This document shows positions 15,191-58,378 of a stretch of 64,000 bases of DNA, in pieces. The translations under genes and the position numbers were made by a program. The stretch comes from Aphrocallistes beatrix. Its lineage: Eukaryota > Porifera > Hexactinellida > Sceptrulophora > Aphrocallistidae. The stretch spans positions 2,713,696 through 2,777,695 of the forward strand of contig OY725492.1 in assembly GCA_963281255.1 (NCBI GenBank). The letters run 5' to 3'. The notes below the pieces were generated by a model. The model was not told where the DNA came from, did not search any database, and was given only the letters and a program-made list of their open reading frames with translations. Position 1 is the first letter of the stretch. Each line of letters begins with the position of its first letter.

Positions 15191-17059
15191 CCGTATTGCT
15201 TCGAATAAGCGCCCGGGCGCTTATTTATTTCGTGCACCCTTTAGACCCGGCGCTTATTTTTTTCATTCGCTATTTTGACCCGGCGCTCTTTTTTTTTGTT
15301 TACTACATTGACTGGCACTTTTATTATTGCCACAACTGGGAATGTTAGTTAGATTAAAAAAGGATAATGTAATGTTTTAAAAAGCACTTGTATATATGCC
15401 ACTACTGAGAATACTAGTTAGTAGGTAGGTATATAAAAAAAGAGACAATATTGTTTCAAGAAGTCACTCAAGCTTCGTCATCCAATACAATCAGCTCATT
15501 ATCCTCATCTTGTTGAGAATCTATTTCATGTGTATTTTCAATTGGGTTGTCTGAGCTGCTGCTATCTGTCAGCTCTTTGAGTTTTTGAAAAAGTTCATCA
15601 CGGGAACTAAATAGTACTTCATCTTTCCGAGTGACTTTTATCATCTCATTTTCAGAATTGTCAATATTGTTCGTAATCGCACAAGTTTTGAATGACTTAA
15701 TGTGGATACTGGTTCCCAAGCTTGTTTCACCCATGTGGCCACTAAAGGGAGCTTTTACGTTGCCACCACGTGTGTACTCTTTTTCAGTACCTCGCATCCA
15801 CTCTTCATACAATTCGCGATATCTATCTTTAAATGGTTTGTTCCAAGATACATCAGGCGCTTGTATCAGACTAGTGCAGCCCCCGGGGATAACTGCCATG
15901 TCAGTGTTCAATCGTGATGCCAGCTGTTTAGTACTGTCCTGGATATGACACTTATAGCTGTCCCATACAATTAATCTTCGACCAAAGGCTAATTCTCCCC
16001 ATGTGGTTCGTAACCATTCGTGAGTTAATTTTTCATTCATCCAACCATTTTCGCTCATCACACATATAACTCTTCTATCGCTTATAGATCATGAACACGA
16101 CGCTTACCCTTGAACACGATAAATGGCGGTAATTTAGTACCATTTGCTTTAGCAGCGAGACATACAGTAATGCGACATTAATCGTGGCCAGTGGTCTTGA
16201 TGGGGATGGATTTATGCCCCACGAAGTCCACAGTAGTATTGGCTGGCATGTCTAACCAGACGGGAGTCTCATCCATGGCGCCGATATGCGAGAGCTCATA
16301 ACGTTGTCGCAGGATGAGCGAACGCACAAAGAGAATGAAAAGTGTCAACTTAGGGATAACTGTATCAGGAATTGCTTGCCCAACTGTGGTGCGACGTCTG
16401 AGAGTGATTTTGTTTCGAATAAAAAAGTTTCGTAACCACCCGCGACTCGCAACGAAGGTGTCTTCTTCGCCACCGTAGAGTTCGAGAGCCTTTGTCTGCA
16501 CCATCTTACGAGTTACTCTCAGCCTCTGACTTCTCATATAATCTATCCATCCATATAGTTCTTCCTCTATTGTCTCTAACAAAGGTGGCCGACCACCACC
16601 ATCCAGCTTACGGCGCTTTGAGTTCCTAATATCATAGGCACCTCTCAACTTGTCCTGATCCTTGCACCATTCCCGGATACGTTTAGCGTCGACACCATAT
16701 TTGCGAGCTGTTTCCTCTTTACTATTGCCAAGTTTGACAAAGTCTACAACCTTCAACTTGAATTCAACGGTGTAGCTATGAAGTTTTCGTTTTGTTCGCT
16801 TCTCTGCCATCATCTAAGCCTACTATATGTTCTCTAATATGACAAATAGGAAGAAAACATGCCTAATTACCTAGTTCAAAATCAAACAACAGCTTAGATT
16901 GTGATTTAAAGGATGAAATTATTATTATACATTTATGGTTTGATATGATGTTCAGAGAACTAGAATGCCCCGGCGCTTATTTATTTCGCTCACCCTTTAG
17001 ACCCGGCGCTTATTCAAACCGGCGCTTATTCAAACCGGCGCTTATTCAGGGAAATACGG
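15191..17059 (-). mobile_element. pogo/Tigger-type DNA transposon, decayed
   Basis: This 1869-bp element lies between TA dinucleotides (15189-15190 and 17060-17061). The ends are imperfect inverted repeats rich in AATAAGCGCC and GACCCGGCGCTTATT blocks. It encodes a broken pogo-family transposase on the minus strand. The 385-bp MITE at 45209-45593 has the same two ends and lacks the transposase, so it is a deletion derivative. The MITE at 10832-13384 shares the outermost 20 or so bases. Confidence 0.8.
15468..16813 (-). pseudogene. pogo-family (CENP-B/Jerky-like) transposase, broken
   Basis: The first part (16813-16178) begins MMAEKRTKRKLHSYTVEFK and carries a helix-turn-helix (SKEETARKYGVDAKRIREWC), then a CENP-B-type second helix-turn-helix (RGWLRNFFIRNKI) and the first catalytic aspartate in GAMDETPVW. 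A TAA stop follows GHD, the frame then continues through CLAAKANGTKLPPFIVFKG and breaks again. The second part (16061-15468) has the second aspartate in VWDSYKCH and the third in APDVSWNKPFK, the usual pogo DDD layout, followed by an acidic tail. A premature stop and at least one frameshift between 16061 and 16178 make it a pseudogene. These enzymes cut and paste their element into TA sites. Confidence 0.8.
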
Positions 17060-30900: not shown

Positions 30901-33900
30901 CATGGATTTATGATTGTTTCAATATATATCAAAGTATTCGAGAGCACGGAATTATTTTCAGTCACGATCGCTTACACAAAATCAAGACTATTGAATTTCT
31001 TAGCATTGTTTCACCAGCTCTTTTCATTGACGTTATTTCTCTATCATATGTTATGAAAAATGTCGAACAAATATCCCCAGCTATTCATCCTAATAATTTA
31101 ACGATATCAAGTATACATGTTGAATCACAAAATGCAAACTATGGGGAATATAATCTCTCCTCCTTCAAATATTTCTTTAATACAACTGATTGTGCAAGCG
31201 GTTTACCACTAATAAAGGCATCTTCTAACAATAATTCATTTACCGTGAATACGTCCCGTTTGCAAAATGCAAGTTTGCCAATTAAAGGACATTTCTCTAT
31301 TACGACAAACTTTTCACGAAATCATACTATCAACAATCTAGCATATAACATTAATGAAACAGATTTCCTCGCCCGTATTGAACAAGTTTTTCTCAAAGAT
31401 AATGCGAAAGGCGGAATAGCATTCAGTGATAATATTTGCAGGGAGAGGAAATTTTGGATTAGTTTTTACAAATTTCCTGGTGATCTAGAAGCTGTTCAAG
31501 TTGATTCTTCCTTGCTCTCTGGTAACGAATTAAGAATTAGAGTTGATGAAGTCACTCCTGGAGGACTGATAATGGCTCCAATCCCTGGCCACATGCTACG
31601 TACTGTAAATCGAAAGCCTCAGATAAATATAAGGAAAAGCGGAAGATTAGCTTCATGCAAGGGGCCATTTACTCAAAACGATCATAATTTACTCCTAAAT
31701 TCATCCATTAATATATGTGATTTTTCCTATACGAACTCTCCATTCAATATAACTGATATTTTTCCAAGAGATGCTTGTGTGAATTCTACACTCGTCATAT
31801 CCGGAGAAAATTTTGGTTATTCTCTTAGTGATATTTTTGTCACTGTTGGTAATAGTCAATGTGAAGTAATCTCAATAACGAATACCAATCTAACCTGTTC
31901 TCTTCCCCATAGCATAGGTGGGAGACAAATCATACATATGCAAAAATTATCTTATGGAAATATCCCTGCGAATAATGAGCTAACCATTAATGTATGTTTA
32001 AAAATTTTGACTGTCAGCCATGCTCGAGGAAGTGTTGAAGGAGGCTTGACAATAACGATCGAAGCTACCAATGGACTAGTAAAATATCCTTTAGTCAAGC
32101 CGACCTCTTTTATAATGGTTATTGAAATGGCAAATTTAACTTGTGAAATATCATCAAGTAATCATACTCATGTTAACTGTCTCACCCCACCATCTTTACC
32201 TCAAACTGTTGATATTAAAGTTAATATATTTGAATCGGGAATTTTAATTGGGAGTGACACTCTATCTCAAGTTTTTACATACAGTCTCAATGACACACCC
32301 ATTGTTACCGATATATCTCATTCAAGTGGATCAGTTCTTGGCGGCGACGTCATTACACTCTCTCATGATCGGCAGTTTGATTTAGATATTTATATTTCTT
32401 TTGACAAAGAAAATGTTCTAATAACAGATAAGAACTCGACATCAGTAGCTGTTGTTACTCCAAGTCACCCACCTGGTCGTGTGAAAATTATTGTGTCCTT
32501 CAAGAGTGTCGGATTGGCTATCAGTAATTATTCATTTGAATATAGATTCTACGTTTGCAACATTTCATCTTCTTCTGGTTCTCTATTTGGTGGTCAAACT
32601 TTGACCATTCTTGGTGGTGGGTTTTCGACCATTCAGCACAAATTTCAAATTAAAATTGGATCATTCCTATGTTCTATTGTATCAATAACTGATTCTATTA
32701 TTAGATGCGTCACTCAACCGACCAATTCGAGGTATTTTATAAATAGGAAAATATTTCCCAACTTTTCGTCTATTGTCCAAGTTTGGGACCCGCCGGTAAT
32801 CGACATACATCCAGGAGATGAGATTATCTGGTCTTGGTCTAATACCATTGTAAATAATAATTTGAGTCTATATCAAACTCTTTCCCATTCAGCTATTACT
32901 CCATTTAAAAATGGACTAAAATCTGATATGAGCACCTCAGCAACTTTTGAGCACTCTTTTCATTCACCGGGACCTTTTTATTACATGGCTGGTGGCTATG
33001 TTGTTAGTAATTATTCCAATCCAGCTGATTGCTATGTGGAAGGTGAGCAATATCAAGGAAAATTATCTGTCACACGAGATTCCATCCCATGTCTCTCATG
33101 GAATTCTCAATATGTTAGAGATGTTTATCTGTTTACTAGCCCTTTGTTGGGAAATCACAATCATTGTCGTAATCCAGAAAATGATCCAAGAGGTCCCTGG
33201 TGTTTTTCCTCTGATTCAAAGGAGCGTTCGTATTGTAACATACAAAAATGTGGTTTTCGAGGATTAATCAACGTTCGCGAGTATTTGCCTGCGATAGAAT
33301 CTAAATTAGAAGTTTACCTCGACAACTTTAGACCCAAATTTTATAATTCTTGCAGCGGTATTGACATAGTTGAAACAGCAGAAGCAAATGCGTATTATTC
33401 CTATTTATCTACTCAAACACCTCAGGTAATTAAAGTCACATCCAACGAGGACATGATAGTTGCAGCATCGATTATTGAACTTATCGGAGTAAACTTTGGT
33501 TCTGATATTAGTGAGCATAAAGTTATGGTTGGAGATTTTGAATGCAAAATAATTTATTTGTATAAGAACGAATCACTTCCTAAACTAGCTTTTGTCATTC
33601 CTGACAGAATAGCACGAGGAGACTACGTGATATCTCTCCACATTGAGCCATTCGGTTGGGCTTTCTTTTGGAACAATTTGCATCGGATCACTATTCAATC
33701 TTTAGTAAAAGGAGCCTCTCCAGAATATGGTTCTGTTTTTGGTGGCTCCTTACTTTCCATTCACGGAGTAAACTTCAATTCTGATAATATTTCTGACTAT
33801 CAAGTAATAATCGGAAATACGCTTTGCATTTTGCAAGGAATAGTAATCAGTAATACTTCACAAAGTATTATTTGTCTCCCACAACCAGCTATTGATGATG

Positions 33901-36900
33901 GCTACTCATCTCTTATTTATCCCCTCCAGCCAATTAGCTATTGGACGTTTGACGATGAATCTGATCTATTATCTGACACTGGATTTCTAAATGATAGTAC
34001 ATCAGTAACCTTGGCTTATCCAATTCTTGATAGTGACGATTCACATATTAATTCTTATATTCATGCACGTCATAATTCTGCTCTGTTCCATTCAAATTTC
34101 ATGAGAACCAAGTACCAACAAGTCTATGCTGATTTCGAAGTATTTGCGGTAGAGTTATGGCTCCGCAACTCAAGCCCTAAGTTGATGCTCTTGAAGCAGA
34201 ATGATGCCTTTTCTAATTCAAGCAACTCGAATATGTCCAGTAGTGACGGCTACCAGTTTCTAATAGGCAATTTACCTTATTCTCATTTTCCAGGTGGCTA
34301 CCGTTTGGTTATTAATCCTTGTAACAGGTTAGAATTATGGGTTGCGTCCGGTAAAAATATATCCGAAGTTGATATCAACGAATGCCCATTAACGTCAAGC
34401 ATGAATTGCAGTAAGATTTGTTCGGGATATCGACAGGTGTACAGCATGTGTGATAATGGTGATTATACGATCTGGCACATTATTCCAGGACCAGAATTCA
34501 ACTCAAGTTCATCTGATTGGACCCATATTACATTTGGTTGGGAAATACATGGCGGATCATCAAACAAATTTTTTGATGATCCAAGTAATATTGGGAATAT
34601 CAGCGATTGCGTGTATGATGGTGCATCTATGAGATATTGTAATGGCAAGTTGTCTTTCATCATAAATGGAGTCGTCGAAGGAAGTGAAAATATAAGTTAT
34701 TCCCCTGGGGCTCATGTTAGTCAGTTTTTTATTGGCGGTATTCCTCACTGTCCCGAATCAATTATGTGTAATTTCACGGGAATATTAGATGAGATAGTTG
34801 TACTATCACGTCCATTAACGCAACAGGAAGCTCTTCTGCACTATAATATTGCACGGAAGGGGCAACAGTTGATCAGGGTTTATTCTCCGCATGTCGATTT
34901 TATTGGCACTGGGATTTCACCGCAAGTACGCTATCCTAATATAACTGATAATTATAATTACTTTGGTCGTGCCTTCAAGCCCCAACCTAATAAAAGATTC
35001 ATTGATTGGAAAGTCAAATCATATACAGACTTATATATGTATGAGGATGATTTTCTTATATTCTTTTGGAAAAGTTTGGCCTCTCTTATTGAAATCAACA
35101 AATTCAGTTTTGATACTTGTACTATATCAACCGGTTTTATAAAAACCTGGTCTTCCTATACTGTTCAGAATTCCGTTAATATAAGTGATCTCAGACCAGG
35201 TGATCATTATTTTACCTCTGATTTAGAAGACCATTGCCATTCTGGTATGAAAATTAAGGTTGCTGTTATGCCCCGTCCTCCACTTCGTAATCGGATCTCA
35301 TTAGATCTGGTTCTTTCTAATGGACTTGTTTTTTCATACCAGCGATTCAATATTGTGATAACAAATATAAGTAATCGAACTCTAACTGTGAATGAAATGA
35401 TGGTGTTGAATATTATTGGGAATTTTTCTTTAACCGATATTTTCACAATATTTATTGGATCTACAGTTGTAAATGAAACTACGCTAACTAGTGAGAACAT
35501 ATCTTTTCTCATTCCGAACATGGAAGCTGGTGAATATGCCCTGAAAGTTAAGGTCAACAATTTAGGATATATTCCTTTTAATACTTCTACCAATCTCGCG
35601 TATTCAATTATTCTTGAAATATCACCATTTATTACTATGATAGACCCGAATAGTGGTTCTCTCATTGGTGGAACTGTTATTTCGCTAATGGGATTAGGTC
35701 TATCATCATCCTATGCTAGTGTTTCTGTTGAAGGTATTCATTGTAGTATCCTCACTTCTAATTTAAAAACGATCGTTTGTCAAGTAGTTCCTTCCTCTGA
35801 ACAATATCAAGATGAAAATGTGTCGGTCTCAGTTGTAATAAATGGCTTTTCATCTAATTATCTCGATTTTTCCTTTTCTCTTTCCCAGACTCCAAAAATA
35901 TCATCTATTTTTGCTAACACAAGTTTGCTTAACGTTGTATCTGGATCTAATCTCACGATTCAGGGTACACACCTCTCTGGAAACACCATTGTCAGGATAA
36001 CAGAATTAACGAACACTTTTGTTAAGAATATCTCTCGAGAAAGCGTTGCTTGTCCCCTAAACTCATATTACATGGAAATGATTTCTTGTACGGTTCCCAC
36101 TTTACCAGGAGGATATTACAATTTACTAATCGATGTACCGGGATCAGGATTTGCAAGCTTTATTGATATATCCCCAGAAATCAGAGTTATTTTAGTTATT
36201 TCAAAGATTGAACCTAACAGAATAGGAACAGGTGGTGGGGCTTTAGTCATTATTTCTGGAAGTGGGTTCCTTCCCTCTCAAGGGCATTCGCTATTTCCTA
36301 CATTAACTACCGAGAAAGGATTTGAGGTTATGCAAGTATATATTTGTGAGATAAAGTGTGAAATCGTGATGTCTACTGAATCTCTAATCCATGTAATTGC
36401 GCCAAAGATTACAAGTAATAGTTCTCAATTGTGTAATGTGTCTGTTCATTCGAATTCGGTTATTTCAGTATTGAATAGCAGCATTTCGCTGGATGCATCA
36501 TACAATGGCGTCATCGATATGTTCACACCTACTTTCGGAGGCACAGGAGGGAGGACATTTCTTAGTATTAATGGATTCGGGTTTGGAAATGTCATTGGCG
36601 AAGTGATCATTGGCAGCTCAAATTGTTCTATATCCTCTTGGAACGATTCATTGATTACATGCATAACTGGTACACATCGCACAGATAGAGAGGCATCAGT
36701 GTCTGTTAACATACCCAATGTAGGTGTTGCAACACATTCCAATCTTTTTTACTCTTATATTGACAGATGGAGTAGTAACTTTACATGGGGTGGCTCTAAT
36801 CCGCCGATTCAGGGTGAAACTGTTTATATTCCTAAATCCTTTGTTGTTCTATTAGATGTCAGTCCACCGCAGCTGAACTTGATCCTAATTGAAGGAGAAC

Positions 36901-39900
36901 TCATTTTTGAGGATGAGCAGGATATCAATTTAACAGCTAGATACATTGTAATTAACGGGGGCAAATTGCAAATTGGGACTCAGGACAACCATTTCATGCA
37001 CAGGGCAGAAATTACTTTATATGGCAATATTCTAGATCCTGGGATTCCGCTATATGGCTCTAAAGTCCTCGCAGTTAGACAAGGAGGTCTCGATATTCAT
37101 GGAAAACCTCGCAACAGAACTTGGACGCGATTAAATGAAACAGCAAATGCAAATCAGAAGTTTATTAACGTACAGGATCCAGTACAGGATTGGCATGAAG
37201 GAGATCAAATCGTTATTGCTCCGACAGGTAAGGACAGCAACGAAACTGAAACTTTAGAAATATATGATGTGACAGAAAATGGGACCACCATCATATTAAC
37301 TGAGAGTTTGAAATATTCTCATCTTGGAATCACTGACACTTATGAAGGAGGGAGGTTTATTGATCTTCGAGCGGAAGTTGGATTATTATCTCATAATGTT
37401 ATTTTACAGGGTTCTTTAATATCTCCTTCTGATCCACGTGGGATTGAGTCAGACCTTTTTGGTGGTCATTTAATGGTATTCCGCCCGAAACCTGATCCTA
37501 TGGATATTCGACTATCACACTTAGAAGTAAGATTCATGGGGCAAGCTTTTAGACTTGGCAGGTATTCCATTCACTTCCACTTGAGCGATAGGATGAATGG
37601 TAGCTACGTGCGGCATTGCTCTATCCACCATAGCTTCAATAGGGCCATCACTGCTCACGGTGTTGAGGATATGTTGTTTGATGGGATTGTTGCGTTTGAC
37701 ATCCAAGGTCATGCGTTCTTCGTTGAAGATGGAATCGAATTTGGAAACAAATTTTTAAACAATTTAGGCATATTAGTTCGTGGATCTTCGAGCCTCCTCA
37801 ATACCGATCAATTGCCAGCTGTATTCTGGATAACAAACCCTAATAACACTTTCGAAAATAATGCCGCAGTTGGGTCGCGAGCTTATGGGTTTTGGTATGA
37901 TTTAGATCCACGTCCGTCTGGGCCATCTGCAATATTCAATGTCTGCCCCAATAAGAATCCATTTGGCGGATTCAAAAACAACGTTGCTCATTCAAACGCA
38001 GAATTTGGATTAAGGATATGGGAAACCTATGACCCTCACACGATCCCTTGCAGTGGTGGCTCTGATCGCGATACTGCGACTCTCTATAACCTGACAGCAT
38101 ATTCCAATGGAATACATGGTGTAGAATTTTCAGTCGTCGGACATGTTACAGTTGATGGTTTCAAACTAGCTGACAATCGCGATAACGGAATTGAAATATC
38201 TGAAACAGTCGGTGAGTGCTCTGCAGCCGAGATAAAAAACACACTTATTATTTCTAGAACACGCGGAAATACTCAGCTAGCGCAATCAGGAGCAATAAAA
38301 ACTATGCGTCGTAATTTTCTTCGTATTTCTAACGTCACATTTGTGAATTTTAATGAAAATAATGCTGCTTGTTTGAGAGCTTGTTCCCATTGCAAAGAAT
38401 TTCAAGGTGGATTCGAAGTTGAATTTCAGGGTATTACATTTTTGGGTGGTTCTGAAAGACGAATTGCAAGTTTCCAATGGGAACACGAAACCTTATTCAA
38501 AGACTTGGATGGAACGCTTACTGGTGAGAAACCTGGAAGCATTGTAATACCTCATTCGAAAATACTCCCGTCTGACTTGTGTAACTTCTCTGTTCCTGAA
38601 TTTAGCCTCAATTTAAATGGTTCAGTTTGTTCACCACGTCTACACATGGTTAGACTTGCCTGGAATCAAGTTGAACCCCAAATTACTTTTACTGACAAGG
38701 AAGCCAATTTCACCAATGAATTTGGTAGCACTCTTATACCTTGGAGGAGAAAGAGATTGACCCATAGCAATGGTTATATGATATTACTACCAGCAAATTA
38801 CAGCTACTCTGTGAACTACGGACTAGATAAAGAAGAAGGAACAGACATCACTTTTTATAGAGGATCTATTTACAATATGGTTTCTGGAGACTATATTATC
38901 CTTTCACAACAAATTTATGTTAAACCAAATCATTGGAATATTCGAGATGAATCTAAAGGAATAAATAATCATAATTCCACTCTTCCTAACGCTAATTCCT
39001 ATGACGCCACACATCTATCCTGGTTCTATGATAACGCAACTGAAACATTGACGTATTTGCTAAAGGGAGAATCAGATACTGATAAATGCACTCCACGTGC
39101 ATTCAGTGTAATTAGAGAACCTTGCCCTGTTGATGAGAATGGGATTGTCGAATGCGAAGTTGTTGCTCCAATCGACGGTGATTATGAGGGTGTTCCTCGT
39201 TTTTGGAGTAAACCAGAAAGCTGGCCCTCAGGATCTGTACCCAGTTTTGGAGAGGATGTTATAATAAACAGCAGTTGGATAATGTACTTGGATATTAGTC
39301 CACCTCAGTTAGGCAAATTATTCATCTTTGGACAATTAATATTTAATGACACACAGGATATCAACCTCACAGCTGCTATCATCCTGATTCAAGGGAATAA
39401 TGCACACCTGATAATTGGTACTTCTATTTCTCCTTTCCAACATAGAGCTGTGATTACTCTAGTTGGAAACAGAAATTCTGACGAAATATCTCTCTCTCGA
39501 AATATTAATCTTGGCTCCAAGGCGTTGGGAATATTCGGGAATGTATCAATATTTGGAGAACCAAATATACGCACCTTTGCCAAATTAAATGAGAGTGTCA
39601 ATTCAGGATCATTTCGCATTTCCCTTGATACCGATGCACTCAATTGGAGTGTTGGGGATTCCATAGCTATAGCGGCCTCAGGATACAATGCTGATGAGAC
39701 TGAAACCAATCAAATTGTGGCAATAAACGGTAATACGATAACATTGAAAGATCCTTTAAGATATTCTCATCTCTACCAATCACTTCTCTCAGATGAAAAT
39801 ATGGATGACTCCAATAACACAGATTGGCATGCTTCCATTGTGTTAGCTGCAGAAGTAGCCCTACTCTCAAGAAATGTAATCATACAGGGAGGAGAAGATA

Positions 39901-42900
39901 GTGCTCAACCTTTGGAAGAATTCCATTTTGGTTGTAGGATACTAAGTGGAAAATATTCCACTTCCACTTCTGTATATGTTGGACATTTTAAGATCGACAG
40001 TGTTGAAATTAGAAACTGTGGACAAGGTGGGTTTTTTTCATCTCGTGATCCCAGATATTCTTTTGCAGTAAAGAATGGCGGTGACAGTATGAGGGACAGT
40101 TTCATTACTAGATCTGCTATTCATCATGGCTATAACACCGGCATTGGAATTCATTTGACAAACGGAATTCAAATTCGAAACAACGTAGTATACCGTACTG
40201 TAGATTCAGGTATTCGTGTAGGTGGGACCTCCAACATAATTGAAGACAATCTCGTGATGCTAGTTTCATCAGTTCTACCAGGTCAGCCCAGTGACAAACA
40301 TGCAGTTGATTTTCCAGCAGCATTTGAAGTCGAAGGTACACACACATTGAAACGGAATATTGCTGCAGGATCCTACCGCTTAGGTTTTAAGATATCAGGA
40401 GATTCATGTGGTGATCAAGATACCCAACTTGTAGGCGAAAATATTGCTCATACCACTTGGACTGGGATGCTTATCACAGGAACTCCCAATAATTGTACTG
40501 CTATCAAGAGTTTTATTTCCTTGTGGGCTTGGAACTATGGTATTTTTTCCCAAACTGCTTCATCGCTCTTTTTATCACGAATTGTAATTGTTGTGGGAAA
40601 AATTGGGTTAAACCTCAACATTTTTGGTCCAGACCCGATCAAGCATTTATTGGGTAGAAAATTTGTTCACATAACTAATTCATTAATCATTGGTGCTCTG
40701 CCAAACGAACCGTGTGATGAAGCGATGCCAGTTTATTTCACTCAAAATACTTTACAACCTTCTAATGACAAGAGTGGAATTATGATGTCATATATGAACA
40801 GAAATTCTTTTAAAATATTTAAAATTTGGCATCGAGCTCAACACTATCCTGTTATTGATGGGGATTTTCGAATTATTAATACAACTTTCGTGAATTTTAA
40901 AGACCGTGGTTGCCGTTTTTCAGACTATTCGGTAACGAATAATCCAGCTTCACCTGATGCTGTTACTCCATTATCCATCCAAAACACTAAAAAAATAGAT
41001 GTCGATGAGAAATCTTTGATGTTTTTTTATCCTCCAAATCCTGCATGGATCGTCCAAGAAGATTGCGTCGACATGGACTGTGATGGACCTAAACATGCCT
41101 TAATAAGGGACCTTGATGGATCATTTACAAGTAACTTCAATATCCGAACCACATTAATTCCTGTAGCAGAATTACGGTTTGATGAGTCAAAGATTCCTCG
41201 CATTTGGCGGTATAATTCTTCCACCGAGGAGCTTGTTGACCCTTCTATCTTAGCTCCTGTAGATTTTAGAGGTATCGCCAGAGGAATAAGGCTTAATGGT
41301 AACATGGACAATCCAACTGTGAAAGGATGTTCTTTTATTCACCAGTGGAATGGATATAAATGCAATAACATTGACCATTATGTGTTAGTGATTGAAAGTA
41401 TGGATCCGGATACAGAAATTAGACGTCTCTCGCCTATTGCTTTAAATGGTGGTAATATTGGCAATGGTAGATATACAGACTTGATAAATGGCCCAATGGA
41501 TCATGGTTGGTGCACCTCTTATACTTGTTTGAAACGATTATCCACTTTCTTTACGATAGTTATTTCTGGAACTGATTACACAATATGGTTATCTTCGACA
41601 AATCCATCTCATATACGATTTCATCTTTTGAATTCAGATGATGACCCAGATAATCTCGGTAGTGTTGTCATCAAAATTTTATATGACGACCCTCTTCGTA
41701 AAGATATTTATGTGGATGGCGAACTAATCCCACCCTTGAACTTAATGGAAAATAATTATCGTGCAATTGGGAATCAATACATTCCAACTCATTCACATGC
41801 GACCGGCTCTAATTATTTTAATTATGAAGAAAGATTGATGCACCTTTTGGTTAAAGGAAGCAATCCTGTTTCTGTACGAACTGCAAATGTTGTTCAGTTA
41901 TCGTTCAATTTGGAAGTTTCTCTCAATTCATTCTTCGATCCTGCGGAATTTTTCAATAATTTGGTCTCAGTCCTAAATATAGATACGAGTACAATTAGAA
42001 TAGTAAACGTGATATCTGAAAGGAGTGGAAGGAAAAGAAGACAGACCTTCTCAATGGATCAGGTAATTATAGAAATCGGATATTCTGCTGAATCATCTAT
42101 AGATACGCCTCAGGCCCCTTCTATCGCAGAACAAATTGAATCACCTAATTCTGATTCAGGACTTTCATCGATAGATGCCGAGGCAAATGAGCCAGCCAAT
42201 GAAATTCCTACTAATCCGCCCGAACTCGCCCCACTACCCACTACTGATATTGACAATGATACGACTATTCCTACCGCCAGGGAATATGCAGAAGATTTCT
42301 TGATCCAGACGCAACAATACGAGGTTGATTCATTGCTGTACAATCAAACATTGAGTGCGTACGATGAGATTACAAGTATTGCAGATATGCTCGTAACACT
42401 TGTACAAACGAATAATCTTAACATAGCTAATGCTAATCTGATTGATTTAACGATCGATCCACCAGCCCCTCCGATTCCTCCCCCTCCGCCTCTCATTCCT
42501 CCTTCCTACGCGAATATAACCACCGGCAATGATGAACAGCTCCTTACACCTTTTGAGGAAATATCTGCAGAAATGCCACTCACACCAAATATAGGTCAAA
42601 GCATCGAGATTCGCATTCCATCTAGTCTTAATATTATTCAACAGCCTAATTCTGTGAATGGCCATCTTTTATACGTAATAACTGAAGTTAGGGACAGTTC
42701 AGGGAATGTGATTTCACAATTAGGGTTAACAGAGCTGTGGATCTGCAAAGCGATTCTTAATCATACTTACGGACAAGCTAGTTCAGCACCTTACCTTTCT
42801 GGCGAAACAGAAGTAGCTTTTTCAAATGGAAGAGCAGAGTTTACAAGGTTAAGAGTCAACCGTCCTGCTGAATCTCTTCATATATACTTCATAACTACTC

Positions 42901-43697
42901 CTGGAGATTTGAAGAGCGAATTTTCTACTGAATTTGAAGTGATAACTCCTCCTCTTACTTGGCCAAGGATCACGTTCTCTTTCAGAATTAATGGGAATTA
43001 TTCAATAGCAAGCACTATTGAGTTTAATGAATTTTACTCTTTCGAAATTAGTAAAATAATGGATGTTGATCTTTCAAGAATTCAGGGATTGATATTTTCT
43101 GAAAGTAATAATATTATCATGAGAGCTCAATTATTAGAGCCTTTAACGTCAGATCCTCCCAATGTGCCCACATCTAATCGCGCTCTCATGCTACTACAAA
43201 CTGCGATTGATACAGCCAGGGTAACAGTGAGATACAACGATCATACCTTTTCTGCAGTGCCATTATCGTTAACAACAGATGTATTTACGACAGGAACAAA
43301 CGGGACAATTCCTCCCGTATCTGCTCCCGGAGAAATTAATTTTATAATGATTATCGCCATTATTATCGGGTTTGCTAGTATCATTCTATTGATCATAATT
43401 GGTTTTGCTATTATCATTGGTATAAAGTTGATATATTCTTACAAAATGAGAAATCAATTGAAATCGTTAAAAGAAAAAGTACTTATTACGAATTATTCTG
43501 ATATCAGAGGAAAAGAAGACTTGAGAAATGACTATCATCTGCCAGAACCAATCGATAATAGTGGGCTGGTTATCATGAATCCTATCTATTCAATGGAGAT
43601 AATGCCACATGTTCATAGCCCTGCCACTGAAATGGAGTTTGATTTATTACCCGCCAAATCCGTAAATCAAGAATTTAATCTTCCTGGTAATACATAA
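22000..43697 (+). CDS. PKHD1L1-like: Fibrocystin-L-like giant membrane protein with kringles
   Basis: Five exons fit in phase: 22000-22407, 25076-25222, 26603-26786, 27984-28208 and 29593-43697, all with GT-AG borders, giving about 5022 residues. A short hydrophobic start is followed by IPT/TIG domains in exons 1-4; exon 5 then has a PA14-like region (about 345-475), kringle 1 (535-611), four IPT (1036-1365), a cupredoxin-like domain (1380-1460), kringle 2 (1467-1541), two IPT, a LamG-like domain (1763-2078), five IPT (2240-2712), G8 (2713-2840), beta-helix repeats, a second G8 (3521-3650), more beta-helix repeats, a RKRR cleavage site (about 4468), a proline tract, one membrane helix (4905-4938) and an 84-residue cytosolic tail. 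PA14, IPT, paired G8, beta-helix and the single helix match fibrocystin-L, a surface-coat receptor; the kringles and LamG domain are extra. The start is inferred, and an earlier exon is possible. Confidence 0.85.
23683..23900 (-). repeat. 161-bp near-perfect palindrome plus Helitron-like tail
   Basis: Arms of about 78 bases run inward from 23683 and 23843 and share CAACCATCTAAGTAACTGC, ACAGTGATTACGTATTTTTA and CTTCGCTTGCTTACGC, differing at only a few positions. The centre consists of CAAGCGAAGC-type terminal-module sequence on both sides. Just to the right, GGCGGACACTTTATGTCCGC completes the module in minus-strand order. It looks like a Helitron-like terminus that was inverted and duplicated together with neighbouring host DNA. 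Confidence 0.65.
24744..24854. repeat. Two adjacent perfect or near-perfect hairpins
   Basis: The first hairpin (24744-24776) has perfect 16-base arms, ATTTAAAGCGTATTGA and its complement, around one G. The second (24788-24854) has arms of about 30 bases containing ACTAAACGTCTTTTTCGGAG and ATATCAGTCAATA with one or two mismatches. Both lie in intron 1 and would form strong stems in the transcript. Confidence 0.7.
25223..26602 (+). other. Intron 2 with a foldback element
   Basis: The donor is ATG|GTATGT and the acceptor CCTTTTTAG, phase 0. The foldback at about 25390-26005 is described separately. Text at 26200-26300 (CCCGATTAATCGGCTGACC, CCCTATTAAGCGGAGTCAAC) looks like a decayed pogo-like end. 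Confidence 0.7.
25390..26005. repeat. Foldback element in intron 2
   Basis: Three nested inverted pairs are visible: GTAGCTTGCGGATTT against AAATCCGCAAGTTGC, TTAACCACGCGGAATAGAGC against its near-complement at about 25911-25936, and GCAAAATTTTGATTAGTCAT against ATGACTAATCTTAATTTTTG. Together they make a stem of roughly 250 bases with a small loop. There is no coding region. Confidence 0.6.
26787..29592 (+). other. Introns 3 and 4 of the fibrocystin-L-like gene
   Basis: Intron 3 is 26787-27983 (donor A|GTGAGT, acceptor TACTTAG) and intron 4 is 28209-29592 (donor CCAG|GTAAGA, acceptor TTTGTTTAG). Both split codons after the first base, so the reading frame passes through exon 4 without change. 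Apart from the short AGGTCA-like runs at about 27830-27880 (GTTCAGGTCA repeats) nothing distinctive is seen. Confidence 0.7.
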
Positions 43698-46095: not shown

Positions 46096-46127
46096 GATCA
46101 TCTTTCAATGAATTAGTCAACTAAGAG

Positions 46128-47060
46128 GCTAGGTGTGGCCGCGGTTTTATCCCAGAAAGATCAACGAGTTGGGATTCTCAAACCCATTCAGTATTTTTCC
46201 TCCGCGTTGAGCGATTCCCAAAGGAACTATCCCGCAGGTCAGTTAGAGGCCTTGGCCTTGGTCGCGGCTACTGGAAATTTATTACATGCCACACCCAAGA
46301 TTTACCTAATCTCAGGCCATAACCCGCTCCAGTGGATGAGGAGGCAAAGGATCCACGACACATCTCCTCTAGATGGCTAATGGAGTTGGGAGAGCTTCCG
46401 TATCAAGTCGTGTATCATCCAAGAAAGGAAATCAATAGCCAGACCTGCTTAGTCGGACTCCAAACTTGCGAGTGGATACACACGTTAACAAAAGGAGTAA
46501 GATTTCGAGAATAAAATTTACTACACGGAAGGCTAGAAGGATGGCTAACAGGAGTCAGTCAGGAATACACGAGCGTCACTCCCCACCCTACCATCCCCAG
46601 GCTGATGGAATGGATGAAAAAAATATTGGTACTGCCAAACAAGTCATTCACAGCTTACTGATGGAGCGGAAAATGGAGAACGGATCGTGGCCATCTGTCT
46701 TACCAGAGGTAATCTTTCTTATGAACAACGTCAAAAATACAACTACGAAGTATCACCTCATACCTTCGTAAGACAGCCCAGAGCACTCGACACAAGATTA
46801 CTGGGAGTCCCTTCAAGAGGTGCAGAGGGAATTGACGGAGACAATGACGTCGAATGAGGACAAGGAGGTTCACGGAAATAAAGAAAAGATACGACAAAGG
46901 CACGAAATTCACACAGGTGGCAGCATACTGTTGGAAGTGGGGAAAAGAGAATATTCATTGTCTGCAAGATTTGAAGGTTCCTATAAAGTGCCGGACCAGA
47001 GAGGAGCTAACATTTGAGTGAAGCTGCCAAGAGGAAATAAGTGGCACTGCACCAACCGTT
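46128..47060 (+). pseudogene. Ty3/gypsy retrotransposon pol remnant
   Basis: Three frame-shifted pieces follow the gypsy pol order. At 46135-46500 an RNase H segment is readable (QYFSSALSDSQRNYP, LEALALVAAT, HNPLQWMR, then in another frame RWLMELGELPYQVVY). At 46540-46770 comes the end of the integrase core (PPYHPQADGMDEKN, containing the last catalytic acid). At 46820-47060 an integrase C-terminal piece (EYSLSARFEGSYKV, DQRGANI) is present. Reverse transcriptase, the zinc finger and the first integrase aspartates are missing, as are LTRs. It is an old, internally deleted and inactive copy of an LTR retrotransposon. Confidence 0.75.
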
Positions 47061-49074: not shown

Positions 49075-50724
49075 TTCTTCATCTTACTATCAGGGAATAT
49101 TTGCTTTAGTTTATTTTATTTTTGAAAATGAGGATTTTGTTTCGTACCTATGTATTTTATTCTTGCCAACTCCTGAATACTTCCCTGTATTTTGACATAA
49201 ACACCAAGATGTTAATCTTTTTTACAAATATATTCGTTAATTACTAAATTTAGGCATATTCGTGCTTCTTTAAGCAGATTAACCATATTTCACACTCTTA
49301 TTGCACATAGAAGTCGATCAATTGACGCAAACCCTAGATTCAGTGTAAATCCCCAAGATAATCTAGAGATCCCGGAATGGTTGCTAAGTATGGTGATAGC
49401 TTAATTAGGTAGTGTTTTCGTGTAAATTTCTTTTGACAGTTTCGAATCTCAGAATTTACATGTTGTACTTGGCAACTATGCTAATAACGTCACGATGCTA
49501 GGCACTCATCTGAGAATATTTTTTATCGAAATTTACTCGGTAAGCTTCCCAAATATTTCTGAATACGTTTGCCACCAATTAACGAATCTCTCCATGTGTG
49601 TGATTGAGGTTGATATGTACCGTTAATTAGCATCAACTTTCCTATCATGCCATGTTGACGTAGGTATTCAGAGCTCTTAGATCAGTTAGACTTAATTTGA
49701 GATAATTGGTTGCTAATTTTATTTTAAAGGATTCTTAAGAATTATGTAGACTTTTCTTACTAGAGTGAAGTTGTTGGGCAACGAACTTTAATTTTCTTAG
49801 AGAGCTATAAACCTTCAGCAGACTATAATGAAGAAATCTTTAACTGTTCCAACCTTGTGCAAGCTGTTTCTTTAATTGTCCACCCATTGAAAGTGGCCAC
49901 AAGTGTACTATTAGAGACACTGGACAATTACTGATAACTGATAATTGTCCATTGCAATGTTTTCAATGTTGATTTGTTCTGTGGGCTGTGGTCGTTAACA
50001 TATTTGTCAGAATTTTTATTAGAAATAATTGAATTTTAAGGATAATAAATCCTAGCTAACTGTACGTATCTAATTTTGTATTTTGTATGAAAATTATTTT
50101 TAAAAATTGGGGGAGGCATTACCCTCCAGGCAAAATTCTGCGGTGTAGTCCCCTCCAAGGATTACACCTCTGCTCTCTACCAAATCAGTCTCAAAGTCAC
50201 TATAGTTCTACTATGGTAAGTATATTGTATTATGTTGTTGTCATTGTATAAATTAACAACCTTGAAACCTTTCGATATTCACTTCACAAACCCTTATTTG
50301 ACAGTTTCTCACTACTATGGCCTCATAATTATATATGGAATAAAATATGAGAGATATAGAAATGATAAGCATTGAATCATTAATTAAGTTCTTATTACTA
50401 TGGCTGATATACGTTGTACAGTTACTGTCATCATTGCAGTATTAGATAATACTTATGGGAGACAGCTGTCCTCCTTGTCAGGTGACAGTCAAGAGTGAAG
50501 TATGTCCTACTCTGAACCCATCTTTCCATTACTTTATCCAATTAACTCCTCATTTGCTTAATATGTCATTTCTCGGAGTTATTGTTCGGAATGGTGATTC
50601 ACTATTACATCAACCATATCGTTTTCTTTTTCTTGTTTTATTCTGCGAGCTGCAGCCATTTTTGAATGGTCCTGGTTTAAGTATATATAATATTGGTATT
50701 TAGAATCGATCATTTAAAGTTAAA
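49075..50724. other. Intergenic region between the NHL and collagen-like genes
   Basis: No convincing gene lies here. An AATAAA signal at 50043-50048 is far from the NHL stop. An 82-codon frame at 50455-50703 has no recognisable domain. The collagen-like gene's promoter is probably in the last few hundred bases, where TAAGTATATATAATA at about 50677 could act as a TATA-like element. Confidence 0.4.
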
Positions 50725-52248
50725 ATGCATAAATTATATTTGACAACTCTTTCAAACATTTCAATAATAAATGTATTAGTATTACTGCTAGTACATCAAT
50801 CTGAACCATCATCTAGTAGAGAAGGACACCGAATTCACTCAGAACTAACTTCCATCTCTACATCTTATGATTTCTCCCTCACCTCCAGTGGAGTATATCC
50901 AATTGACTCAGATAATGCATCTTTGTTCTACTGGTACATCCCTACGCTGCATTCCCGTCCTAGTACAGCCCCCCTCGTGTTGTGGCTTGGAGATGGTAAG
51001 GCGAGTGTAATGAGAGATGTTTTCGGGAATGAAGGGCCGTTTTATTTTCAAATAGACACCGATAAACTAAATCAAATCTTTGAAGCAATCAGCATAGACG
51101 AGGAAGACCAAAATAATGAATTTGATAGCATGGCGTTTAATTCCACCCATTGTATGGAAGAGAAATTAAAATATATCAGTTCAGCCAAAATACGCAGACA
51201 GCGAAGCCCTCGCTCACACCACAACGAGAATAATGGGAGTAGCCATCATAACCATAGTGATCACGAACACCACCACCGCCATCACCACCATTCTTACCAC
51301 CACAATCACGGTTTCTTTCCAGGACCACCAGGTCTAAGAGGCCCACCCGGTCCTCCTGGCCCTCCTGGCCCGCCTGGTGATTCAAATGGTTCCCCTGGTC
51401 CTCCAGGTAACACAGGACCAGAAGGGCCCCCTGGTCCACCCGGTTCTGATGGCTCAGCCGGACCCCCTGGGGAGACAGGTTCCGCTGGAAACACTGGCTC
51501 ACAAGGACCTCCAGGCGATCCGGGTATTGGACAGCCTGGACCCCCCGGAGAACCAGGAAGCGACGGTTCACCTGGATCTCCCGGAGAACAAGGGCCTCCC
51601 GGTCAGGACGGCAATCCTGGACCTCAAGGACCTCCAGGGTCCCCCATTCCCTCCGGAACTACACCCAGGCCCCCTCCTACTGCGGCTCCCGCTACTGCTG
51701 CTGCAGGTCCAAGAGCTAGAAGAGAATTTATGATGCAGCCTCTGGACGATATTCCTGAGATGCGATATCTACATTATTCCAATATTCCGGTTGGGGTGAG
51801 GCCGCATAGCCTCCTCACCTCTCACAACCTCCTCTACATAGACTCGATTGCCGGATACGCCACGGCTACACCCACACATGATATCCTGGCAGGGATTATA
51901 TCACTAACGAACAAACTCCAATCCTCACACGCTCCTGTGAATGTCACATTAGTAACGTCTCAACATATGCTGGAGATACTAGGTACCAAGAGCTCAACTG
52001 AACTTGGTAACTTCCTCGCACACTTTGTGTCTCACTTGAAACTGTTAGGAAGAGAGAGCAGTGATGATGAGAATGATGTGGAGACCAAGTGTTTTCTAAA
52101 TTCCTGTACTCTTAAGCAGTTAATGCAGTGTCCTCGCATGCTAGTCCTCTACTATTGGCTAAATGAAGGCAAAGGCATTGTGAGAGAAAGGTTAGGAGTT
52201 AAGGGAGTGAACAAGTATCAGTGGACGCCTTATGTTCAGTACCATTAA
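50725..52248 (+). CDS. Secreted collagen-like segment embedded in a degenerate S10 carboxypeptidase fold
   Basis: This single-exon frame of 507 residues starts with a signal-like hydrophobic stretch (about 10-23). Residues 52-118 ([27 protein letters not shown], then GNEGPF) follow the N-terminal strands of serine carboxypeptidases, but the GGPGGSS oxyanion motif has become GDGKASV. A histidine-rich tract (165-196) and about 35 Gly-X-Y triplets (200-307, two interruptions) come next. S10-like text resumes at 368-381 ([14 protein letters not shown], family LYIDNPVGTGFS). The catalytic GESYAG is absent ([12 protein letters not shown] at 407-418), and the chain ends before the Asp and His regions, so it should be an inactive pseudoenzyme. 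Convertase sites RRQR (157-160) and RARR (330-333) bracket the inserted part. The collagen and signal are seen directly; the S10 link is inference from motif order. Confidence 0.75.
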
Positions 52249-52908
52249 CCTACCATTTACTTATAACCTTTTTCTTTATTTAAAATGTTGTCCCTATGAA
52301 TCTATGCAAGTAAAATGCAATGATTATATGCACAAGGGAACTTTGCTCGCTTGAGATCCGCAGATTCTGAATAATTCGTGTCCGCACTAGATTATATGTT
52401 AGTATTTACCTGTAGCTAAAATTTTCCTTTTATCTCATACAAGCGCGCGGCTGGCGGACACGAAGTGTCCGCCGAAGGCTCCCTTCGGTCGCCTGGAGGT
52501 GATATTGGTTAATTAAAAGGGAGATACCATCTCTAAATATGTCCATCTTAGTTTTAAAATCGATATCCTCGAAAAAACACCAAATTTGTCAATTTTTAAA
52601 ATTTTGATGAGTAATGATGACGTCATAGCAAAGTGATGAGTCATCATTTTTTGATGATAGTTATATCATATGTGAGGTATGTTAGTATACAGATTCTATT
52701 AAAATTTCAGCCTTCTATCTCCTATAATGGCTGAGTTATGCCCGAATAACTGTGTTGCTTAACTTTTAAAAATGTGACAATGACGTCATAATTCCATGAT
52801 GAGTCGACATTTTCGTCTGAGCTCAGAACTTACTGGAGCCATAGCCAAAAGACTCCCACATGCCAAAAATCAGCTTTCTACGCCTGGCAGTTTCTTCAAT
52901 CAATTCGT

Positions 52909-52947
<39 letters not shown>

Positions 52948-53147
52948 NNNNNNNNNNNNNNNNNNNNNNNNNNNNNNNNNNNNNNNNNNNNNNNNNNNNN
53001 NNNNNNNNNNNNNNNNNNNNNNNNNNNNNNNNNNNNNNNNNNNNNNNNNNNNNNNNNNNNNNNNNNNNNNNNNNNNNNNNNNNNNNNNNNNNNNNNNNNN
53101 NNNNNNNNNNNNNNNNNNNNNNNNNNNNNNNNNNNNNNNNNNNNNNN
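52948..53147. other. Assembly gap (200 N) inside a TA microsatellite
   Basis: There are exactly 200 unknown bases between TA repeats on both sides. The round number suggests a placeholder rather than a measured length. The gap lies in the microsatellite of Helitron-like copy D, next to the left end of the Tc1 element. Confidence 0.9.
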
Positions 53148-53154
53148 ATATATA

Positions 53155-54840
53155 CACTACCCGGACAAAAGTATTCATCCAATTCTTTCAACAAACAAAT
53201 ACTACATAAACTTTTTCACAATATTGTAATTGTAATGCATTAATATCCAATTGGGTATAAACTATATAATCAAAGGTTACCCTTGAGAATAAAGTTTCCT
53301 TTCCGATAATCTTAGCAATTTATTTTCCAAATGAAGCTACACCCAATGTTGTGTTAATTAAGGATCAGAATAATGTATTTATAATAACAGATTCGTGTAT
53401 AAATAAGTGATCTGTGATGCCTATATCCTATACCTAGAGGCTAGAGAACAGAGCCACTATCTACTCTAATACGTACAATCATTATTTTTAATATTTTGTT
53501 TGCAGTCCTTTGGCTTGTTTTAGCGCCTCCAACCTCTTTGGTATCCCTTCTATTAATTGGCATAATGTTTGTACTGGTAGTTTCTTCCACTCTTCTTGCA
53601 AAATTTTAGATCTTTTAGATTTTTGGGGTGATTTGTCCTTGAATTTATACGATGTTGGAGGATATCCCAAAGGGATTCTATGGGGTTCATATCTGGACTT
53701 TGCGCAGGCCACTTGAGGAGTTTTATTTTTTTTAGATCGAGCCATTTTCGTGTCTGCGATGAAGTGTGGCATGGGGCATTGTCCTGCATGAAACCAATAT
53801 TTGGCATTTTCTTGACTAGACGTGAAAAAAATAAATTATAAAAAGGTTTCAAAACATGATCAATATAAACAGTTGAATTCATTCTGGAGTCCACTACAAT
53901 GCATGGACCTAATATGCCGTAACAAAAGCACCCCCAAATCATAATCGAACCGCCATCACCTTTTACTGTATTGATTATACAATCGGAATTATATCTCTCC
54001 CCTTTATGTCGCCATACCCTCAATCTTCCATCGTTATTAAAAAGCGTGAAACGACTTTCATCGGACCATATTATGTTTTTCCACTGAGACAAAGTCCAAT
54101 TTTTATGAGTATTATAGAACACTAACCTTTGTTTTCTGTTTCTGTTCGAAATAAGAGGTTTTCGTTTGGGAATTCTCGAATAGTACCCCATTTCATGGAG
54201 TCTACGAGATACCGTCTTGGGTGAGACTCGCCTTGGATCGACATTTTGGTTAAATTGGTTAGTTAAAGTTGCTAATGAAGACCATCTATTCTTTTTCAAA
54301 GTAATTTTCAAAGATCGCAAATCACGATCGCTCAATTTTTTCGGTCTTCCACATCGTGGAAGATTCTTAGTAGAATCATTGACGAACCATTTCCTTAATA
54401 TCGATTGTATTGTACTCCTAGGTATTTTGAGTATATTCTCAATGTCTCTTTGGGAATGGCCACCTTTATGTAAACCGACGATCTGACTACGTTCCGGGTT
54501 AGAAAGTTCCCTATTCTTCACCATTGTTCTTAGTAATAGTACTACAATCAGCTAATTTAACGAAGGAACAGTTAAAAAATAAATTGAAATATCACAAGCC
54601 TAAATATTAATGAGGATGTAAATAATATAAAGTGATATATTTTTAAGACAAAGCCTATGGAAATTGAAAAAAATGCAGCAAAATAATATTAAACTTAACT
54701 CTAAAAAACAAAATAGTTGATAAAACTTTAAAATAAACAGGTTATGGTGTTGTAATAATAGAGTGTAAGACAAAGGAAAAAAGACATAACGTCATGTGAT
54801 TAGTAGTACGAGATGGATGAATACTTTTGACCGGGTAGTG
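53155..54840 (-). mobile_element. Tc1/mariner transposon, nearly intact
   Basis: The 1686-bp element has inverted ends CACTACCCGGACAAAAGTAT and, from the right, CACTACCCGGTCAAAAGTAT (one mismatch), flanked by TA. It carries one transposase gene on the minus strand with a single frameshift. The insertion lies in the TA microsatellite of Helitron-like copy D. Confidence 0.9.
53488..54524 (-). pseudogene. Tc1-family transposase (DD34E), one frameshift
   Basis: The frame opens at 54524 (MVKNRELSNPERSQIVGL) with a paired-like helix-turn-helix (SQRDIENILKIPRSTIQSIL), a second one with a GRPKKLSDRD linker (HRRPS-type), then the DDE domain: first Asp in IWSDESRFTLF, second in FMQDNAPCH and Glu in MNPIESLWDIL. 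Counting from the second Asp to the Glu leaves 34 residues between them, the Tc1 spacing. All three catalytic residues are present. At about 53600-53608, in an AAAATTTTA run, a one-base indel shifts the frame; the expected C-terminus (ILQEEWKKLPVQ, ending KGLQTKY) continues in the next frame to 53488. The enzyme excises and inserts its element at TA. Apart from the last 40 or so residues the protein looks intact, so the break is recent or a base-call error. Confidence 0.9.
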
Positions 54841-57153: not shown

Positions 57154-58378
57154 CTATTGATTGAGTTGTACAGTTGATTTCCTCTTGTTGAGGTGTGTTC
57201 TTATTCTGCTGAATTTGCCTACGTTGCAGATATTTGTTTCTGTAAGTTTGTTGTACCGACGGACAGGTGTTTGGGTGGGTGTTCGTTGTTCTTGAATAGC
57301 ATATAAATGCACCGGTATCTCAGGCAAGGGATAATGGGGACATTTATATTGTATTGTTAATTCATATTGACGACACACTATGCAGTTGTATTCTGGACAT
57401 GGGTAAACTGAGTGGTTGGTATTGGGTCGTTTTGGTGTGTATACCAAGAGTTTCAGCAGTGGTGGCATTGGGGTTAGGTTGAACTCATTGGTTGTATACA
57501 GGGAGAGTTGCGTTTTGGTAGGTCTTGTGTCTGAGTATTGGTGTGTAATGCTGGGGGTGTACTTGCATTCTTTATTCTCTGTGCGTTGTGGGAAATAAGT
57601 TATGCGTAGTACCATGTTTTCAACCACTTCGGTGCAGTCATGTCCGAGCCTCTGTATCGCTGGTAGATACTTTTTGAGCATATAATCCAACGCAGGGTTG
57701 TGTGCAATTTGTGTAGCTCGGAATGCTGCACCGAAGTAGGTTTTGCTCGCTAATTTGGAAAAGAATGCGGGTGCAGGGGTACTGCCTGCCAGTATTTCTG
57801 CTGGGTAGGAAGGAATTCCTTTTAGTGGGGTTTTATATGGCGTCCTGTGTGGCGTTATCGGTGGTGGGTATCAGCTTATAAGGGGCTAATGGTAGGGAGT
57901 CGATAGGATATGTTGATGCTACATCATCGAAATATAGAGTTAGAGCTTGGCCTATCGGTGGTTTGTAGCTCCTTAATAGGTATGCGGTGCACATCCGTGC
58001 CAGCTCAGGGGAAAGTGGTAGTCCCATCGGGATGCCAGTGCTGCCCAGATGGTAAAATTTGGTTCCGTCAGTTAAGTAGTTGTATTTCAACAATTGTTCT
58101 AGTTGTTGGTGTTCCCTCTTCCTCGCGGAATTATAATGCTTGAAAGCTTCTAGTATGAGGGAACGTGGGGTAGAAGGGTATAATTTCTCGATATCGCAGG
58201 TGTATATTTTCTCAGGTGCTCCATACGCCATGAGATAATTGATAGTTTTAAAGATGTCCGCTGTGAGATACGGACACCTTTCTTTGGTAGGACTGATTAG
58301 AGGACGTAAGATATCAGAACACAGCACTGTTATAGAGTTGGTGTGGTTGACGATTGGTCTTGAGAGATTGTGGAAATA
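57154..58378 (-). pseudogene. Reverse transcriptase remnant, Penelope-like
   Basis: The minus-strand frame from about 58378 to 57833 carries RT motif A (CDIEKLYPSTPRSLILEAF), motif B (STGIPMGLPLSPELARM) and motif C (LTLYFDDVAS, a YFDD box). A one-base shift near 57850 moves the coding to the next frame, which runs without a stop (GIPSYPAEILAGS, KTYFGAAFRATQIAHNPALD) into the 178-codon frame ending at 57154. That C-terminal part has a cysteine cluster (YPCPEYNCIVC) but no GIY-YIG endonuclease. The D-x3-LY and GIPMG-PLSP wording fits Penelope-like elements better than LINEs or LTR elements, but this is not certain. The N-terminus is missing; the element is dead. Confidence 0.55.

Follow-up and report, generated by a model that had tools for sequence, protein, structure and literature searches.

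A collagen- and histidine-bearing insert in an apparently dead S10 carboxypeptidase of a glass sponge, and its probable kinship with glassin

The stretch of 64,000 nucleotides analysed here (Aphrocallistes beatrix assembly GCA_963281255.1, contig OY725492.1, positions 2,713,696 to 2,777,695 of the forward strand; hereafter the window) carries at 50725..52248 (+) an open reading frame (ORF) of 507 residues, referred to as P0001, which runs from ATG to TAA as a single open exon with no internal stop and in which two pseudo-S10 carboxypeptidase halves flank an insert of histidine (His) and collagen sequence. By hydropathy its N-terminus (50725..50814, +) resembles a signal peptide with a hydrophobic core at about residues 12-22, the end of this putative signal not being predicted. 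Degenerate S10 strands form the N-flank (residues 54-114, 50884..51066, +), recognised by PF00450, by PDB matches and by alignment with the N-flank of a relative, L041, found on contig 17 of the same genome. The motif RRQRSPR (residues 157-163, 51193..51213, +), with two overlapping R-x-x-R sites, lies just 5' of the insert. The insert comprises a His tract (residues 165-195, 51217..51309, +) with 16 His among 31 residues, a collagenous part (residues 200-307, 51322..51645, +) with 35 Gly-X-Y triplets, 13 of which are Gly-Pro-Pro, and two small interruptions, and a Pro/Thr/Ala-rich linker (residues 308-329, 51646..51711, +). Just 3' of it stands RARR (residues 330-333, 51712..51723, +), a furin-type site; cleavage at either end of the insert is putative. 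The remaining 174 residues, the C-flank (residues 334-507, 51724..52245, +), are probably an S10 core remnant, judging by their position and by residues 361-380 (51805..51864, +), which a block search with shuffles recovered as the counterpart of the S10 segment SWNxFANxLYVDQPAG; the flank stops before any S10 catalytic His region.

Across positions 50000-52800 the longest open frame is 514 codons long, whereas none of 500 mononucleotide shuffles produced a frame of more than 253. The collagenous part scores 55.9 bits with PF01391, above the Pfam cut-off, and no window of 31 residues in 2,000 shuffles held more than 11 His. Of the + frames, frame 1 gives the highest codon score in each of the three parts of the ORF; the flanks score weakly, the N-flank giving 0.130 in frame versus 0.128 in one reverse frame. 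A preliminary description of this DNA had claimed a collagen and His insert ahead of an LYxD strand, in one open exon, and both points hold, the second at the level of the ORF (507 intact codons). The insert had been put at about 110 residues, however, whereas with His tract, collagen and linkers it spans approximately residues 161-333.

The S10 profile PF00450 (length 420, curated cut-off 21.9 bits) matches residues 54-114 of the whole protein at profile positions 12-74 only, with 24.3 bits and an E-value of 2.4e-5, and the isolated N-flank scores 26.0 bits. A PDB sequence search with this flank gave seven matches, six to cathepsin A and one to a plant hydroxynitrile lyase, an enzyme related to S10. 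Against a model of five largely uninterrupted S10 genes from the same genome (the own-S10 model), none of 300 shuffles equalled the N-flank score. Judged from sequence, the derivation of the N-flank from S10 is firm. The oxyanion motif GGPGCSS is replaced in P0001 by GDG (residues 89-91; GDG-KASV), no G-x-S-x-[AG]-G of the kind seen in the catalytic serine motif GESYAG occurs anywhere in P0001 or L041, and the ORF ends ahead of the catalytic Asp/His region in the C-terminal third of S10. A genome-wide PF00450 search with 11 matches revealed no further S10 piece near P0001, although divergent pieces could escape it. Because the oxyanion, catalytic Ser and catalytic Asp/His regions are all missing, P0001 is regarded as S10-derived and not as an S10 peptidase; that it is such a derivative carrying an insert seems to us almost certain. 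An S10-derived start and the loss of the oxyanion and catalytic-serine motifs had both been anticipated in the preliminary description, and the PF00450 match above the cut-off and the motif searches confirm them.

Genome searches covered 28 contigs (100.5 Mb), and only the best candidates were scored, so that remoter relatives could escape. With whole P0001 they returned 67 matches, of which 65 were to the collagen part, one was P0001 itself and one lay on contig 17; the N-flank alone found only its own gene and the contig 17 place (E 6.1e-5). The gene there, L041 (603037-604335, 433 residues), is a single open frame encoding a dead S10 with a His/Pro/Ser-Thr insert, a second protein of like layout that the preliminary description had missed and that is probably glassin. 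Its plan comprises S10 strands, GDG at the position it has in P0001, an insert of 129 residues (30 Pro, 24 Ser, 17 His and 14 Thr; Cys-rich too) and an S10-like C-half. PF00450 matches it in two stretches (profile 21-71 and 73-176) that flank the insert and jointly score 26.9 bits. The N-flank of L041 resembles human cathepsin A 14-76 (E 0.0024; six of eight PDB matches are cathepsin A, the other two being weak and unrelated) and its C-flank resembles residues 78-175, all five PDB matches being cathepsin A; the insert thus occupies one point of the ancestral enzyme, between cathepsin A residues 76 and 78. P0001 is interrupted at the same break point, and the two N-flanks align with a z of 15.5. 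Each L041 flank beats 300 of 300 shuffles against the own-S10 model, and the C-half is without the S10 cap region and has GGKNFG at the catalytic Ser position. On the sequence evidence, P0001 and L041 have a common insertion point and L041 is S10 kin. With S10 enzymes such as cathepsin A, carboxypeptidase Y and CPDW-II, P0001 has the N-terminal strands in common and L041 much of the core too; both proteins differ from these enzymes in having no GGPGCSS, GESYAG or C-terminal His region, in their big insert in an early loop and in being truncated. Some S10 enzymes also lose an internal linker on maturation.

Some results weigh against this view of L041. Scanned singly, its flanks score 13.1 and 19.6 bits, both under the PF00450 cut-off, and the PDB matches of the C-flank have E-values of 0.28-0.45, which are not significant alone. 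Aligned with the five S10 genes singly, the C-flank was equalled by 0, 0, 2, 15 and 115 of 500 shuffles. The AlphaFold model from the single sequence was uninformative (predicted local distance difference test, pLDDT, 40); a second model, from an alignment that included S10 rows, was better but partly circular; its 13 best chains gave low template-modelling (TM) scores, 0.29-0.32 when normalised by query length, and residues 341-433 were poorly predicted.

The identity of L041 gives these observations their wider interest. Glassin, as described in the literature, is encoded by a single exon nested in another gene, and is a protein of ~48 kDa with His/Pro/Ser-Thr repeats and a conserved C-terminal domain (PMC10282587). 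The likeness of P0001 to the glassins of Euplectella, Aphrocallistes, Oopsacas and Vazella runs through L041, in the single exon, the ~48 kDa precursor, the low-complexity His-containing middle and, as far as the 14 residues compared show, the conserved C-terminal domain, and a smaller mature glassin product has also been reported (PMC10772126, PMC10282587). The hypothesis that L041 is glassin was set down from the published description when its open frame and length were already known; its mass, 48.9 kDa or 46.8 kDa from the second Met, was computed afterwards. Nesting and a C-terminal peptide served as two blind tests. L041 sits between EGF exons of a same-strand gene that begins, within the stretch analysed, with an astacin exon (its single-exon status and nesting being read from open frames). 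The same astacin-EGF host gene contains a nested single-exon gene for an RRM protein (L094:1680-2816), which may correspond to the nested neighbour of A. vastus glassin, since a figure legend mentions an adjacent nested gene too (PMC10282587). Nested genes make up ~12% of A. vastus genes, so that nesting lends only modest support. The only printed piece of the glassin C-terminal domain that was found, 14 residues from Vazella (positions 364-377), was read after the hypothesis had been noted; it matches L041 353-366 with 7 of 14 residues identical. Shuffling L041 20,000 times gave 6 matches as good, and shuffling the peptide 20,000 times gave 9; the score of 34 compares with a next best of 26 over 729,274 translated positions of the loci examined. 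The conserved C-terminal region of glassin covers alignment positions 277-476 (PMC10772126), and the C-flank of L041 is 197 residues long. Single exon, mass, nesting and peptide agree, and we consider it highly probable that L041 is the glassin orthologue. In P0001 the Vazella peptide reached a best score of 9, which is no match, and P0001 is for this reason classed as a glassin paralogue and not as glassin. It is further unlike glassin in the collagen of its insert, the furin-type sites at the insert ends and its divergent C-flank, and no sign of nesting was seen within 43.5-64 kb of the window.

Glassin, accordingly identified, appears from these alignments to descend from an S10 carboxypeptidase. 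A 2024 study called its origin enigmatic, BLAST and Foldseek having given no reliable relative outside Hexasterophora (PMC10772126). If L041 is glassin, then glassin is an S10 carboxypeptidase interrupted by a silica-active insert, and the insert could mask the S10 fold from searches using partial sequences. Silicatein, of demosponges, is a member of the cathepsin L family and hexaxilin is akin to metallo-beta-lactamase-fold proteins; both being hydrolase-type folds, S10 would, on the same condition, be the third such fold recruited by sponges for silica. Neither a pseudo-S10 identity of glassin nor a collagen within an S10 fold was met in the literature searched, which leaves out most subscription papers, and in an enzyme-immobilisation review naming both glassin and carboxypeptidase, the glassin passages are silent on kinship. 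The origin of glassin is the larger prize, P0001 itself being a probable glassin relative and a candidate collagen bearing its own His tract.

A possible course of events can be outlined. P0001 and glassin would both come from a secreted serine carboxypeptidase of the S10 family in which the oxyanion motif, the catalytic Ser and the catalytic His had been lost, and a low-complexity insert would have entered the loop linking two early S10 strands. In L041 the residues Pro, Ser, His and Thr abound in this insert, and in P0001 it consists of a His tract and then Gly-Pro-Pro-rich collagen. The latter protein would be secreted, its dead S10 halves folding round the insert and holding it soluble and properly displayed. 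A proprotein convertase might then cut the R-x-x-R sites at both insert ends, freeing a His-collagen peptide of 16.7 kDa or leaving it tethered by one end. The collagen part, perhaps modified to 3- and 4-hydroxyproline (3Hyp, 4Hyp), would trimerise, and the clustered His would condense silicic acid on the collagen fibre as the spicules thicken. The dead carboxypeptidase would thus be the carrier and the His-collagen chain the cargo; cleavage, trimerisation and silica binding are steps that we infer.

Several lines bear on this outline. In P0001, R-x-x-R sites bracket the insert, at residues 157-163 and 330-333, and occur nowhere else, a feature that the preliminary description had missed; only 2 of 100,000 shuffles place such sites in both regions. 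For A. vastus, processing of pro-glassin at its repeat borders into a ~25 kDa product has been proposed (PMC10282587), and the same reasoning would yield the 16.7 kDa product from P0001. In Euplectella glassin the His-rich domains are the silica-active part (PMC10772126). A Gly-3Hyp-4Hyp motif is described as a template for silica in the anchoring spicules of glass sponges (PMC5867623), and the Gly-Pro-Pro triplets of P0001 could be a substrate for it. Like P0001, the hydroxylated spicule collagen proposed as a silica template is Gly-Pro-Pro-rich and from glass sponges; however, it is fibrillar, that of Monorhaphis being matched to a type I collagen chain, whereas the collagen of P0001 is short and lies in a pseudo-S10 (PMC5867623). 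Perisilin, a glass-sponge spicule protein, also joins a folded domain to a His-rich segment, but its domain is CAP/GLIPR1-like and the His segment is C-terminal, not within the fold (PMC10772126). Other observations weigh against the outline. The regions scored for R-x-x-R had been picked after the sites were seen. L041 has no R-x-x-R sites, and excision in the form proposed for P0001 does not therefore extend to it. Nor is a silica role of glassin universal, since in Vazella silica was not labelled by a glassin antibody and silicon brought no rise in glassin transcripts (PMC10772126). On balance we lean slightly towards release of the P0001 insert, and regard a role of P0001 in silica deposition as an even matter. 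The reading of P0001 as a glassin paralogue of S10 origin that provides a convertase-released His-collagen silica scaffold is, as a whole, fairly probable. More tentatively, and with less than even confidence, glassin and P0001 may belong to one family of glass-sponge proteins whose inactivated S10 part acts as a carrier that can be removed, with a single surface loop accepting exchangeable mineral-handling cargo, the convertase-released His-collagen cargo of P0001 uniting His condensation and hydroxylated collagen, silica agents that have been proposed separately.

Alternatively, and in line with a suggestion of the preliminary description, P0001 might stay whole, as a secreted scaffold of the extracellular matrix in which the dead S10 fold bears a stalk of trimeric collagen and a His patch that binds metal, having no silica role. 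His tracts bind metals, the collagen and His segments of P0001 are real and its start is signal-like; yet the sole R-x-x-R sites bracket the insert, and L041, its closest relative among those recovered, is probably the silica protein glassin. For P0001, kinship seems to favour silica over metal, and we consider the intact scaffold unlikely, although it survives best among the alternatives.

It is also conceivable that S10 ancestry is confined to the N-flank, an exon or retro-event having joined a fragment of S10 to a short-chain collagen whose C-terminal domain is unrelated. Sponge short-chain collagens have a short Gly-X-Y stretch flanked by non-collagenous ends, as in P0001; we know of none with S10-like ends. 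The C-flank of P0001 indeed scores near noise in all but one block, which tells against S10 ancestry of the whole. It has no Pfam or PDB sequence match of its own, shuffles as good as its alignments with the five S10 genes singly number 51 to 281 of 500, and its comparison with the L041 C-flank is near noise, being equalled by 38 (local) and 70 (global) of 1,000 shuffles at the two best settings and by 219-220 of 1,000 at two others. When the C-flank was scored with the own-S10 model, 17 of 300 shuffles did as well, a number that fell to 2 of 300 once L041 was added to the model, and MAFFT gave no sensible alignment of the P0001 flanks with S10 pieces. However, the LYVDQPAG block finds residues 361-380 in the expected order and place, with 19 of 20,000 C-flank shuffles and 80 of 20,000 shuffles of whole P0001 as good; it was built from eight rows without P0001, the LYIDS motif being known beforehand from the preliminary description. 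Moreover L041 is broken at the same point and its C-half is S10-like. Kinship of the P0001 C-flank with S10 is suggestive in view of this single block and the near-noise remainder; taking block, position and L041 together, we hold its S10 origin to be likely and the origin of the N-flank alone from S10 rather improbable. Of the expectation that both flanks would prove to be S10 in profile searches, the N-flank part was upheld by PF00450 while the C-flank gave no Pfam or PDB match, and its assignment to S10 draws on the block, on position and on the L041 C-flank but not on direct alignments.

A further alternative is that L041 is not glassin, and that P0001 and L041 make up a small group of His-rich matrix proteins derived from S10, their likeness to glassin being coincidental. 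L041 is without the His-Asp tract of the Euplectella type and has neither of the two [V/L]GG repeat-border sites reported for A. vastus and O. minuta, the C-domain comparison comprises 14 glassin residues only, and nesting is common in A. vastus; these points count against the identification. His-rich regions are reported absent from the glassins of A. vastus, R. fibulata and S. nux (PMC10772126), and since the His-Asp tract varies among species it was not treated as defining glassin; nor were the [V/L]GG sites. Single exon, mass, nesting and placement of the peptide concur, and a genome search with L041 gave four matches, itself and three N-flanks, with no second gene having its C-domain, all of which makes a coincidental likeness still more improbable than the fusion. 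That P0001 is a decaying pseudogene or a gene-model artefact, as transposon remnants nearby and weak flank codon scores might suggest, is very improbable, given that its 507 codons are intact and twice as many as in the longest shuffled frame (253), and that frame 1 scores best of the + frames throughout.

Attempts to find a Euplectella-type His-Asp glassin elsewhere in the genome yielded none. A loose H/D pattern gave at least 98 forward and at least 103 reverse matches, mostly trinucleotide repeats among the matches listed, which extend as far as contig 9; one promising place, L084, encodes no His-Asp protein, and a stricter pattern gave two overlapping matches at one place, in no credible protein. 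Relatives of P0001 in viral contigs (7 of 18 stretches) all matched through the collagen repeats and were not used; in L085, an alignment of 27% identity reaches the N-flank but the collagen repeats carry its score. None of 32 stretches from viral contigs contained an L041 relative.

Hexaxilin genes bear on the affinity of the genome. A pattern covering part of the hexaxilin N-terminus occurs at 12 places with at most one mismatch, two of them exact, against one for the reversed control. At one of the exact places, a 365-residue protein (L043:1375-2472, +) has the complete 16-residue N-terminal peptide of Euplectella curvistellata hexaxilin-1, which Shimizu et al. sequenced from spicules, together with 17 of 20 residues of their hexaxilin immunogen, and two hexaxilin peptides from Vazella agree with it in 8 of 15 and in 10 of 13 residues. 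A second hexaxilin gene (L042:601-1707, -) has 13 of 16 residues of the Euplectella N-terminal peptide. As the exact Euplectella peptide is encoded, the genome is that of a glass sponge, and by these peptide matches its hexaxilin is nearer to that of Euplectella than to that of Vazella. The preliminary description had pointed to a sponge, which is borne out, but had missed the glass-sponge affinity.

Other S10 genes were also observed. L005:1399-2739 has GYGYAG for GESYAG and DRNPGCS for GGPGCSS and is apparently dead, with no insert, and L001 and L003 (contig 3, 717178-722413) are a tandem S10 pair, 83% identical. Sources for the S10 alignment were genome contigs (1 of 102 matched), viral contigs (0 of 111) and genomes of one bacterial class (21 of 198), from which only L096, the same gene as in L097, was taken as an alignment row. 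This gene, from a Bacteroidales metagenome-assembled genome, is 32% identical to the sponge enzymes over its best segment and scored 310.8 bits as L097; other S10-like genes found in its class score at most 73.8 bits.

Upstream of P0001 the window contains an NHL-repeat gene and an uninterrupted ORF of 4684 residues (29643-43697, +), which presumably resembles fibrocystin-L. Downstream, an assembly gap of 200 N (52948-53147) directly follows an AT dinucleotide run, and a Tc1/Sleeping Beauty-type transposase frame of 323 residues (53556-54524, -) lies beside P0001. Further pieces of mobile elements and related domains in the window are a retroelement RNase H piece (46117-46377), a reverse-transcriptase-like piece just below the Pfam cut-off (57836-58327), an ORF with a THAP domain (12374-12856) and a DDE_1 transposase piece (15471-16061).
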